Shown: piece by piece, positions 33,533 through 40,006 of the stretch
Numbering within the stretch: the first letter of the stretch is position 1
How the letters are laid out: each line of letters begins with the position of its first letter
NCBI RefSeq assembly: GCF_004300825.1
Contig: NZ_CP036250.1
Span: forward strand, 3,483,001 to 3,547,000
DNA: 64,000 nucleotides
From: Egicoccus halophilus
GTDB taxonomy: Bacteria > Actinomycetota > Nitriliruptoria > Nitriliruptorales > Nitriliruptoraceae
Reading direction: 5' to 3'
The notes under the pieces: model-generated
The model's database searches: none
Seen by the model: the letters and a program-made list of their open reading frames with translations, nothing else
Told to the model about the DNA's origin: nothing
Position numbers and translations under genes: made by a program

Positions 33533-34996
33533 TCAGCGGTACGGGAACCACCAGTCCTTGGAGGCCTGGTCGAAGTCCCAGTGCACGTGCTTGGTCTCGA
33601 GGAACGTCTCGAGCCCCTCGGGGCCGAGCTCACGGCCGCCGCCCGTCATCTTCATGCCACCGAACGGTCCCGCGTAGTTGTCGGTCAACGGATCGTTGAT
33701 CCACACCGTGCCGGCCTTCACGCGCTCGTAGAAGCGCTTGATCAGCAGCGGGTCGGACGAACGCAACGTGGCGCCGAGGCCGAGTTCCGAGGCGTTGACC
33801 CGGTCGATGACCTCGTCGAAACCGTCGTAGGTCGCCACCGGGATCGTCGGACCGAACGTCTCCTCGGTCATGATGACCATGTCGTCGTCGACGTCGACCA
33901 GCACGGTCGGCTCGTAGAACCACCCGCGCCGGTCCGGCCGCTGCCCACCGGTGAGCACCCGCGCGCCCCGGTCGACCGCGTCGCGCACGTGCGCGTCGAC
34001 CTTGTCGCGGAACGCCGCGTCGGCGAGCGGCCCGAGGTCCGTGCCGGCGTCCAGCCCGTGCCCGAGCCGCAGCTCGCCGACCTTGGCGGTCAACGCCTCG
34101 GCGAACTCCTCGCGTCGCGCCGCGGGCACGAACACCCGCTCGGACGAGGTGCACACCTGTCCGCTGTTGAGCAGCGCCGAGTACGCCAGCGCGTCCGCCG
34201 CGGGCTCGAGCTCCGCGTCGGGTGCCACCACGAACGCGTCCTTGCCGCCCAGCTCGAGATGCAGGTGCTTCATCAGCGGGGCGGCGACCGAGGCGATGCG
34301 CTGACCGGTCGCGACCGACCCGGTCATGGCCACGACCCGCACGTCGGGATGGCGCACCAGCGCCTCGCCCGCCTCGGCACCGGAACCGGTCACCACGTTC
34401 ACCACGCCGGGAGGGAAGTGGTCGAAGCAGCGCTCGATCCACTCGAGGGTGACCAGCGAGGTCAACTCCGAGGGCTTGACCACCACCGTGTTGCCGGCCG
34501 CCAGCGCCGGCGCGAGCTTCCAGCCCAGCAGCAGCAGCGGATAGTTCCACGGCACGATCGCCCCGACCACCCCGTAGGGTTCCTTGAGCACCAGGTTGAG
34601 CTGCGTGCGCGGCTCCGCCGAGGGCACCACCCGACCGAGCCCGTTGCGACCGAGCTCGGCGTAGTAGCGCAGCGAGGTCAGCGCCCACTCCGCCTCCTCC
34701 TCCTGCTCGGGCCGGGGCTTGCCCTGTTCGCGGGTGAGGAGCTCGACCAGCTCGCCGTGGTGCGCCATCGAGCGCGCGTACGCCTCGTGCAGCAGTTCCG
34801 CGCGGTCGTTCGCGGCCAGGTAGCGCCAGTCGTCGAACGCCGCCTTCGCTGCGGCCACCGCCCGGTCGACCTGCGCCGCACCGCCGGCCGGTACCCGGCC
34901 GATGACCTCCTCGGTCGCCGGATCGAAGCTCTCGATCCAACGGTCGGCGACCACGTGCTCGCCGCCGATCCACATGCCGCGGGATTCGCTCGTCAT
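33533..34996 (-). CDS. NAD(P)-dependent aldehyde dehydrogenase
   Basis: 487-aa ALDH. The Asn is in VGAIVPWNYPLLLL, the Glu in HLHLELGGKDAFVV, the Cys in LLNSGQVCTSSERVFVP (about residue 281), and the tail is PFGGMKMTGGGRELG. The GQVCTSSER motif and ELGGKD resemble betaine-aldehyde / aminoaldehyde dehydrogenases, which fits the polyamine context, but identity is not certain. Its start codon is also the first three bases of a 56-bp tandem array, so its ribosome site GGGGACC-CAGGCAG is present once per repeat. The array separates it from mmsA. Confidence 0.85.
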   Translation of the reverse strand: MTSESRGMWIGGEHVVADRWIESFDPATEEVIGRVPAGGAAQVDRAVAAAKAAFDDWRYLAANDRAELLHEAYARSMAHHGELVELLTREQGKPRPEQEEEAEWALTSLRYYAELGRNGLGRVVPSAEPRTQLNLVLKEPYGVVGAIVPWNYPLLLLGWKLAPALAAGNTVVVKPSELTSLVTLEWIERCFDHFPPGVVNVVTGSGAEAGEALVRHPDVRVVAMTGSVATGQRIASVAAPLMKHLHLELGGKDAFVVAPDAELEPAADALAYSALLNSGQVCTSSERVFVPAARREEFAEALTAKVGELRLGHGLDAGTDLGPLADAAFRDKVDAHVRDAVDRGARVLTGGQRPDRRGWFYEPTVLVDVDDDMVIMTEETFGPTIPVATYDGFDEVIDRVNASELGLGATLRSSDPLLIKRFYERVKAGTVWINDPLTDNYAGPFGGMKMTGGGRELGPEGLETFLETKHVHWDFDQASKDWWFPYR

Positions 34997-35186
34997 CTGC
35001 CTGGGTCCCCTGTCTCGCTCGCTTCGCTCACTCGTTGCCCCCCAGGCGGCATCTGCCTGGGTCCCCTGTCTCGCTCGCTTCGCTCACTCGTTGCCCCCCA
35101 GGCGGCATCTGCCTGGGTCCCCTGTCTCGCTCGCTTCGCTCACTCGTTGCCCCCCAGGCGGCATCTGCCTGGGTCCCCTGTCTCGC
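34994..35186. repeat. 56-bp tandem repeat array, 3.4 copies
   Basis: Three complete, identical copies start at 34994, 35050 and 35106, and a 25-bp partial copy at 35162. Each begins with CATCTGCCTGGGTCCCC and contains CTCGCTCGCTTCGCTCACTC and a CCCCCCAGGCGG end. GCCTGGG near the start and CCCAGGC near the end are complementary, so each unit can form a 7-bp stem with a long loop. On the minus strand each unit ends with GGGGACCCAGGCAGATG, that is, with the ribosome site and ATG of the downstream aldehyde dehydrogenase. The internal ATGs open only a 26-codon frame ending in TGA. Confidence 0.95.
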
Positions 35187-37937: not shown

Positions 37938-38819
37938 TCACTCCCCCGCGTCCTCCCGACGCCGCGACACCGCCAGTGACAACAGCACGAGCAGGATCGA
38001 CCCGACCAACATCAGGACCGACACCGCGTTGATGAGCGGCGTGACCCCCCGGCGCAGCGAACCGAACACGTACACCGGCAGGGTCGTTGCCCCCGCGCCG
38101 CTCACGAACTCGGTGATCACCACGTCGTCGAGCGACAACGTCAGCGCCAGCAGCGCACCACCGGCGACCCCTGGGGCGATCAGCGGCAGGGTCACCCGCC
38201 GGAACGCCTGCCAGCGGCTGGCGTACAGGTCGGCCGCAGCCTCCTCCAACGCCCCGTCCAACCCGGCGAGCCGCGCACGCACCACCAGCGCCACGAAGGA
38301 GACGTTGAACGCGACGTGGGCCAGCATGATCGTCCCGAGCCCACGGCTGAACTGCACGCCGGTGGCCAGGAAGATCAGATCGAACGCCTGCACGAAGAAC
38401 AGCAGCAGCATCACGGCCATCGTGATGTCCGGGATGATCACCGGCAGGTACAGCAGCCCGTCGAACATGCGCTGCCCGCGGTAACGGAAGCGCTCCATCG
38501 ACAGACCGGCGAGCGTTCCCAGCACCGTCGCCACCACCGTCGAGACCGCCGCGACGACCAGCGAGTTGCGCAGCGCGTCCATCACGCGGGTGTTGCCGAC
38601 CAGTTCGCCGTACCAGCGCAACGACGGCTCGGTCCACACACCCACCCGCTCGTTGTCGTTGAACGAGTAGACGATCAGGACCAGGATCGGCAGGTACAGG
38701 AAGGCGAACACCAGCCACGCGTTGCCGGCCAGCACCCGATCGACCCCCCGGCGCGGCCTGGCGAGCGAGTCGTCGGCGACCTCCGCCCCCGCCCCACCCG
38801 GCATCTCCAGCACACTCAT
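37938..38819 (-). CDS. potC: Polyamine ABC transporter permease (PotC type)
   Basis: 293-aa permease with six membrane segments. It shows the PotC entry LVFAFLYLPILVLIVYSFNDNE and the EAA loop EEAAADLYASRWQAFRRVTLPLIAPGV that contacts PotA. The ATG at 38819 has GGAGGGGG seven bases upstream and is the natural start. The same frame stays open upstream for 77 codons through the tandem repeats (unit 63 bp = 21 codons), which would add a Gly/Arg-rich periodic tail; I regard this as fortuitous. Confidence 0.92.
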   Translation of the reverse strand: MSVLEMPGGAGAEVADDSLARPRRGVDRVLAGNAWLVFAFLYLPILVLIVYSFNDNERVGVWTEPSLRWYGELVGNTRVMDALRNSLVVAAVSTVVATVLGTLAGLSMERFRYRGQRMFDGLLYLPVIIPDITMAVMLLLFFVQAFDLIFLATGVQFSRGLGTIMLAHVAFNVSFVALVVRARLAGLDGALEEAAADLYASRWQAFRRVTLPLIAPGVAGGALLALTLSLDDVVITEFVSGAGATTLPVYVFGSLRRGVTPLINAVSVLMLVGSILLVLLSLAVSRRREDAGE

Positions 38820-38826
38820 GCTGCCC

Positions 38827-39073
38827 CCTCCGAGACCGCTGAAGGCCCCTCCAAACCCCACAGGGGGCCTTTCCCGCCGCTCCGTCCATCCTCCGAGACC
38901 GCTGAAGGCCCCTCCAAACCCCACAGGGGGCCTTTCCCGCCGCTCCGTCCATCCTCCGAGACCGCTGAAGGCCCCTCCAAACCCCACAGGGGGCCTTTCC
39001 CGCCGCTCCGTCCATCCTCCGAGACCGCTGAAGGCCCCTCCAAACCCCACAGGGGGCCTTCACCGCCGCTCAT
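38827..39073. repeat. 63-bp tandem repeat array between potB and potC, about 3.9 copies
   Basis: Units start at 38827, 38890, 38953 and 39016; the first three are identical and the last has a changed 3' end that runs into the potB stop codon. Each unit contains AAGGCCCC and GGGGCCTT (8-bp inverted repeat, about 15 nt apart), so the mRNA can form four hairpins in a row. On the minus strand each unit carries GTCTCGGAGG followed by ATGG; in the copy next to potC this GGAGG is the real ribosome site. The array fills nearly the whole 250-bp potB-potC gap. Confidence 0.95.
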
Positions 39074-39993
39074 AGGTTCTTTCCTCCGGCGCGGAAGTAG
39101 GCCGTCGCGGCGGCCAGCATCACGACCAGGATCGCGACCGACAGCGCCGAGCCGAAGGGCCAGTCGCTCGCGGTCCCGATGAACTGGCGGGCGATGTAGC
39201 TGCCGAGCATCGTCGAGCCGCGCCCGCCGAGGATCTCCGGCGTGACGTAGGCCCCGAACGACGGGATGAACACCAGGATCGATCCGGCGATCACCCCCGG
39301 CCGCGACAGGGGCCAGGTCACCTTCCAGAACGCCTGCCAGCCGCTGGCGTACAGGTCCCGGGCCGCCTCCACCAGCGAGTGGTCGAGGCGTTCGACCGCG
39401 GCGTACAGCGGCAGGATCATGAACGGCAGGTAGCCGTACACCAGCCCGATCATCACGCCGGTCGGCGTGAACAGCAGCGTCGCGTCGATGCCGACCGTCT
39501 GCAGCAGCCGGGTCAGAGGTCCGTCGCTGCCCAGCAACATCCGCCAGGCGTAGGTGCGCACGAGGAAGTTCGACCAGAACGGGATCATGACCAGCACGAG
39601 CAACAGCGCCCGGACCCTGACGGGCCGGGTCGCCAGGTAGTACGCGAACGGATAGGCCAGCACCAGACAGATCAGCGTCGTCACGACGGCGATCCACAAC
39701 GAGCGCCACGCGATGGTGAGCACCAGCGAATCGGTCAGCCGCGCGTAGGAGTCGAGGTTCCAGCCGGCCAGCACGGTGGCGCCCCGCGGCGAGCGGCTCG
39801 CGAACGAGTAGACGACCACGATCAGCAGCGGGGCCGCGAAGAACGCCACGAGATAGGCGAGCCCCGGAAGCCCGATCAGGAAGCCGCGTCGGGAGGCGGC
39901 CTTCTCGGCGTCGCGTTCCAGCCCGGGCCCCGGCGGAGGCGGCTCGTCGTGCAGGTCGGGCTGGACGTCGGGGGGAGGAACGGTCGTCGACAT
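39070..39993 (-). CDS. potB: Polyamine ABC transporter permease (PotB type)
   Basis: 307-aa inner-membrane permease. A Pro/Asp/Glu-rich cytoplasmic N terminus of about 35 residues precedes six membrane segments. PotB features are LPGLAYLVAFFAAPLLIVVVYSF, PFWSNFLVRTYAWRMLLGSDGPL and the EAA loop EAARDLYASGWQAFWKVTWPLSRPGVIAG, then GAYVTPEILGGRGSTMLGSYIARQF. The ATG at 39993 is preceded by GGAGCCGG and lies 13 bp after potA. Its stop overlaps the edge of the 63-bp array. Confidence 0.93.
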   Translation of the reverse strand: MSTTVPPPDVQPDLHDEPPPPGPGLERDAEKAASRRGFLIGLPGLAYLVAFFAAPLLIVVVYSFASRSPRGATVLAGWNLDSYARLTDSLVLTIAWRSLWIAVVTTLICLVLAYPFAYYLATRPVRVRALLLVLVMIPFWSNFLVRTYAWRMLLGSDGPLTRLLQTVGIDATLLFTPTGVMIGLVYGYLPFMILPLYAAVERLDHSLVEAARDLYASGWQAFWKVTWPLSRPGVIAGSILVFIPSFGAYVTPEILGGRGSTMLGSYIARQFIGTASDWPFGSALSVAILVVMLAAATAYFRAGGKNL

Positions 39994-40006
39994 GGTCCGG
40001 CTCCGT

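Follow-up and report, generated by a model that had tools for sequence, protein, structure and literature searches.

The potB-potC junction of Egicoccus halophilus most probably carries a tandem pile-up of a MIRU-like insertion family that would preserve the translational coupling of the genes it enters, through apparent mobility and a putative relay of translation. This reading draws on the dispersal of the unit, its filled and empty sites, its reading frames and gene overlaps, the spacing of its Shine-Dalgarno site and the covariation of its hairpin, all of them read from genome sequence. The window is the whole stretch of 64,000 nucleotides that was analysed, and window positions are used below unless otherwise stated.

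The array at the potB-potC junction

The array is situated in the operon potA-potB-potC-potD, in which potB and potC both lie on the minus strand (Table 1). In agreement with the preliminary description, the gap between these two genes is taken up by four 63-bp units, for which TRF gives a period of 63, 3.9 copies, 98% matches and a score of 476 at 38827-39071. A stem had also been described in every unit, and the AAGGCCCC/GGGGCCTT hairpin is indeed found at 38842, 38905, 38968 and 39031, with one further place only in the 3.98-Mb genome. In transcription order, unit 1 differs from the others by a change of TG to GA, and units 2-4 are identical except for the 3' end of the last one. A search of the window's own genome confined the array DNA to potB-potC. 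The assignment of potC is in line with the NCBIfam PotC model (E 3.5e-68, under the model's curated cut-off).

Table 1. Features of the potB-potC junction and of a neighbouring array (window positions)
Feature	Position	Strand	Evidence or remark
potC, polyamine ABC transporter permease	37938..38819	-	start ATG 38819-38817, conserved in relatives
potB, polyamine ABC transporter permease	39070..39994	-	stop TGA 39072-39070; ORF, homology to relatives' potB, adjoins potC and potA
Element unit 1, 63 bp, TGAAGGCCCC stem	39011..39073	-	R2 74.5 bits, E 9e-15
Element unit 2, 63 bp	38948..39010	-	R2 65.5 bits
Element unit 3, 63 bp	38885..38947	-	R2 65.5 bits
Element unit 4 with 3' end, spacer and potC ATGA	38814..38884	-	R2 76.7 bits, E 2.8e-15
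Unit 1 hairpin	39031..39060	.	exact inverted repeat; arms covary across family
Unit 2-4 hairpins	38968-38997, 38905-38934, 38842-38871		exact inverted repeats
Bridging micro-ORF, 85 codons	38816..39073	-	no internal stop in translation; like architecture in G003, G010
GGAGG within potB 3' end	39083..39087	-	9 nt ahead of micro-ORF ATG
GGAGG, element-borne potC Shine-Dalgarno site	38827..38831	-	7 nt ahead of potC ATG
56-bp x 3.4 array, 100%	34994..35186	-	TRF; belongs to an unrelated family of dispersed repeats, distinct from 63-bp element

Read on the minus strand, the array runs CCT-ATGA-GCGGCGG...GGAGGGGGCAGC-ATGA-GTG. The ATG of the bridging micro-ORF overlaps the TGA of potB, and its TGA overlaps the ATG of potC, as ATGA in both cases; the unit length of 63 corresponds to 21 codons and therefore keeps both overlaps. 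The preliminary description had already noted the 21-codon unit, which holds, and had relied on the potC frame staying open through the array, an argument that carries no information because four of the six frames are stop-free (one of the others has 1 stop and the other 4). Judged from the sequence, the informative frame through the array is the bridge from the potB TGA to the potC ATG and not the frame of potC. Neither this bridging ORF with ATGA at both ends nor the dispersed nature of the unit was recognised in the preliminary description.

Regarding ribosome sites, the last GGAGG had been correctly recognised as the proper one for potC, and an equivalent spacing is found across the family, with 7 nt in 30 loci and 6 nt in 5. 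The proposal of a ribosome site repeated in every unit fails, since the unit-internal GGAGG and ATG are separated by 0 nt and do not form a usable start site. The alternative potC starts derived from it are likewise unsupported: the unit ATGs lie in a frame other than that of potC, the in-frame GTGs fall in the hairpin loop and relatives keep the ATG at 38819. The GGAGG within the 3' end of potB would be the ancestral Shine-Dalgarno site of potC, as empty-site relatives start potC at that overlap.

A dispersed family in the Nitriliruptoraceae

A search with two array units revealed copies elsewhere in the genus, each between co-directional genes, and the control (reversed) pattern gave 0 matches in the genus. 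Models R1 and R2 recovered the family in genomes G000-G003 and in some other genera of the Nitriliruptoraceae (G006, G010, G011, G021 and G022); about 30 loci lie in G001 and smaller numbers in eight further genomes of the family, with lengths of 59-65 bp. Outside the Nitriliruptoraceae, a search within the class with R2 gave no convincing match; the match in G062 (L338) was discarded as weak and apparently inside coding sequence. The window's genome (G000) holds 2 loci, potB-potC and nuoC-nuoD (612959-613029 of the chromosome), a census that comes from sequence searches, and several of the relatives are draft or incomplete genomes. Among the junctions that carry the element are rplP-rpmC, nuoC-nuoD, coxB-coxA, pyrK-pyrD, livH-livM, resB-ccsA and folB-folK, gene names being our reading of the translated products. 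By its sequence matches the potB-potC unit is a member of a dispersed Nitriliruptoraceae family with 65- and 59-bp forms.

Several loci depart from the common pattern. At L134 (G001 C283), units of the 59-bp subtype, 55 bp long and four in tandem, are fused via GACGGAGCGG, a junction of the same type as that of the window array. At L238, L241, L245 and L248 (G006) and at L246 (G001), related tandem arrays bordered by CTGAGC follow stop codons; such arrays cannot start a micro-ORF and possibly represent a variant that uses any TGA stop. At L230, L249 and L256 the copies are 3n long and the micro-ORF shares the frame of the downstream gene, which would permit an N-terminal extension.

Comparison of orthologous junctions separates filled from empty sites. 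At nuoC-nuoD, the filled site of G000 reads gtcga-ATGA-(61 bp)-ATGA-GC, and the empty ones in G002 and G003 (gtcgaATGAGCC and gtcgaATGAGTC, respectively) have one plain ATGA. The coxB-coxA junction is filled in G003 and G010 and has a plain NTGA in G018, G007, G012 and G023. At potB-potC the site is filled in G000, G003 and G010, and most Nitriliruptoraceae, including G001 from the same genus, show a direct NTGA overlap with no unit. There, G003 has one full unit and a partial one and G010 one diverged unit, both with a bridging ORF that overlaps its neighbours at both ends; the 28-bp spacer of G002 is likewise bridging. The constant array in relatives that the preliminary description had regarded as contrary to its reading is thus not observed, with 4 units here and fewer or 0 elsewhere. 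Many copies combine a 5' GTGA with a 3' ATGA, and in these the last ATGA may be borne by the element rather than arise by target duplication; comparison of both ends within single copies led us to reject a target duplication extended by the 6-7 nt that precede NTGA. The potB-potC junctions of other genera and of Acidimicrobiia (L008, L019, L059, L060, L064 and L066) also showed short bridging ORFs, unrelated in sequence, that overlap both neighbours by NTGA, a finding which suggests that mini-ORF relays arise by other routes too.

These comparisons bear on the possibility that the array is a local minisatellite, in which slippage amplified a neutral spacer and the ATGA overlaps and frame are coincidental. 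The near identity of tandem units 2-4 and the variation in copy number between species (4, 1 and 0, from one genome per species) would fit such an origin. However, relatives carry the unit at dozens of further junctions, where its anatomy, frame and overlaps recur, and slippage accounts for copy number at potB-potC only; the dispersed copies and the empty sites refute it as a complete account, and we regard it as very improbable.

Element anatomy, reading frame and hairpin

The element is organised as NTGAGCGGCG, stem, loop, complementary stem, GCGGTCTCGGAGGA, about 6 variable nt and NTGA, with TGAGCGGCG and GCGGTCTCGGAGGA as its conserved blocks. The distance from NTGA to NTGA is 65 or 59, both of the form 3n+2. 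Among the 54 member loci, a 3' NTGA of the start type is in frame with the downstream coding sequence in 44 of 44 cases and the 5' NTGA ends the upstream frame in 32 of 38, counts that are not independent because the copies share descent. Where both ends have an NTGA of the start type, the relay of 4-nt overlaps is complete in 28 of 31 loci and broken in the other three, and tandem doubles of 65+65 and 59+59 give two relay steps. A few copies carry CTGA, unable to start a micro-ORF. The 3n+2 rule is kept in 8 of 13 loci of altered length (p 0.035).

What seems to be preserved is the frame rather than the peptide, given that mean entropy does not depend on codon position (0.94, 0.85 and 0.84 bits at positions 1, 2 and 3). 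Spread or retention of the element for a functional small peptide of 20-22 aa (MSGGxGPxWxFEGPxAVSExx), recognisable across copies as it is, is the least probable explanation of all, since variability is not raised at third codon positions over the other two, an absence of bias on which peptide selection was rejected, and the 59-bp form differs in the middle.

The stem covaried already in the first alignment of eleven copies, less clearly than in the later one of 36 copies, where changes on both sides are found in 9 of the 10 pairs of the hairpin arms. Covariation there amounts to 0.358, versus 0.151 for shuffled alignments and at most 0.127 for slid structures, with the alignment fitted to the model and so favouring the structure. 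A single array unit folds with -31.4 kcal/mol, and copies of the element folded singly do modestly better than shuffled sequences, some of them not at all (z -2.15 to +1.89). Rfam models produced only sub-threshold chance matches elsewhere and no structured-RNA family for the array.

Four stable stems with covarying arms, together with that folding energy, are what would be expected if the tandem hairpins attenuated transcription or steered mRNA decay and thereby set the PotB:PotC ratio. Attenuation between potB and potC had been one of the two mechanisms offered in the preliminary description, but no terminator-like site exists within 38700-39200 and no U tract follows the array stems. Furthermore, the element also occupies unrelated operons, including rplP-rpmC and nuoC-nuoD, and is missing from potB-potC in most relatives. 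A regulatory array is therefore improbable, if somewhat less so than a minisatellite, and the array may still influence mRNA stability in a secondary way. Of the preliminary interpretation, a role of the array in the translation of potC survives; attenuation and alternative starts, the mechanisms offered for it, find no support.

A second array of 56-bp units

Another array, unrelated but similarly placed, had been noted about 4 kb away and taken to make coincidence less likely. The array is real and is located upstream of an aldehyde dehydrogenase gene, and it belongs to a different dispersed family, with about 48 matches in G001 and 17 in G003, larger than that of the 63-bp element. The family core, GGGGGGCAACGAGYGAGCG...GAGACAGGGGACCC, is not restricted to NTGA sites and is found away from them too, and the array was therefore kept apart from the 63-bp element. 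By sequence comparison, then, the 56-bp array is no support for a shared mechanism and speaks for a lineage rich in small dispersed repeats. In the window copy, successive GTGA sites are spaced by 56 bp (3n+2) and the final frame terminates on the ATGA with which the downstream gene starts, so that this array, too, happens to give a relay. In G003 the family occurs at a seemingly orthologous junction.

Proposed mechanism

In the mechanism that we favour, a dispersed, non-autonomous and apparently mobile element of ~65 bp, which also exists in a 59-bp form, would insert at the NTGA overlap of a stop and a start codon, and this mobility would be the cause of its distribution. Insertion would leave an NTGA at both ends and, owing to the 3n+2 length, create a short ORF from the first ATGA to the second, and the element would bring its own Shine-Dalgarno site, usually 7 nt ahead of the second start. 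On completing the upstream gene, a ribosome would start again on the micro-ORF, translate across the hairpin, terminate at the downstream start codon and initiate there once more. At plain ATGA junctions the ribosome can terminate and re-initiate (PMC6728339), and it has been reported that an untranslated structured spacer between coupled genes can abolish coupling, as in phage f1 with +62 versus +89 nt (reviewed in PMC12548453). With 4-nt overlaps on both sides, the micro-ORF would avoid this loss of coupling, and relay re-initiation at both overlaps would keep the genes coupled and render the insertion nearly harmless. At potB-potC, tandem amplification, presumably by slippage, with a loss of 2 bp per junction (65 to 63) would have fused the units into the 85-codon ORF, so that copy number could shift in 21-codon steps without breaking the relay.

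Comparison with known systems

At both ends of the element, the presumed translation mechanism is termination and re-initiation at ATGA (PMC6728339); in its usual setting this mechanism joins two ordinary genes, whereas the element would add one or more relay steps. REP/BIME sequences, mobilised by RAYT, are likewise short, dispersed, palindromic intergenic elements that are sometimes clustered, but the element described here is bound to NTGA in its insertion and preserves the reading frame. Mobilisation by RAYT was ruled out, as the Y1 transposase (PF01797) is encoded in 0 of 35 family genomes with positive controls, and the search for a mobilising enzyme of the element found none.

Strain typing of tuberculosis relies in part on MIRUs. 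To our knowledge, neither their movement nor their effect on gene expression is settled, and so far they have been regarded as mycobacterial; insertion at DTGA sites was reportedly proposed for them by Supply et al. in 1997. No MIRU-like element outside mycobacteria was found in the literature searched. The element shares with MIRUs of the senX3-regX3 type, which are dispersed intergenic repeats of 40-100 bp, its size (59-65 bp), a small ORF that overlaps the flanking genes at -4 nt (here in 28 of 31 loci and at potB-potC) and insertion at a stop/start overlap, as seen here from the empty relatives of nuoC-nuoD, coxB-coxA and potB-potC. MIRUs follow the same insertion logic (PMC12548453, PMC2734929, PMC4213456), and for those of senX3-regX3 reports are confined to M. 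leprae and the M. tuberculosis complex (PMC4213456). In contrast, the present element belongs to the Nitriliruptoria, another class of Actinomycetota, and has its own blocks and a strongly covarying hairpin. By this comparison it is to be called MIRU-like and not a MIRU, the likeness resting on function and anatomy and not on sequence homology.

It is an evenly balanced proposition that the family is lineage-specific, mobilised in trans and independent of mycobacterial MIRUs, that the hairpin serves as the mobility signal, that the 3n+2 length, the own Shine-Dalgarno site and the terminal ATGA together make the insertion self-buffering, and that both groups have converged on the same niche in compact operons, one open to mobile DNA in general. 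The family shows how DNA can enter even the tightest junctions of essential operons, such as those of respiratory complex I and ribosomal proteins, while translation apparently continues unbroken. This counterpart of the MIRUs in a distant class of actinobacteria, whose filled and empty sites are clearly told apart between sister species, opens the NTGA/3n+2 rule and the coupling hypothesis to tests in harmless organisms.
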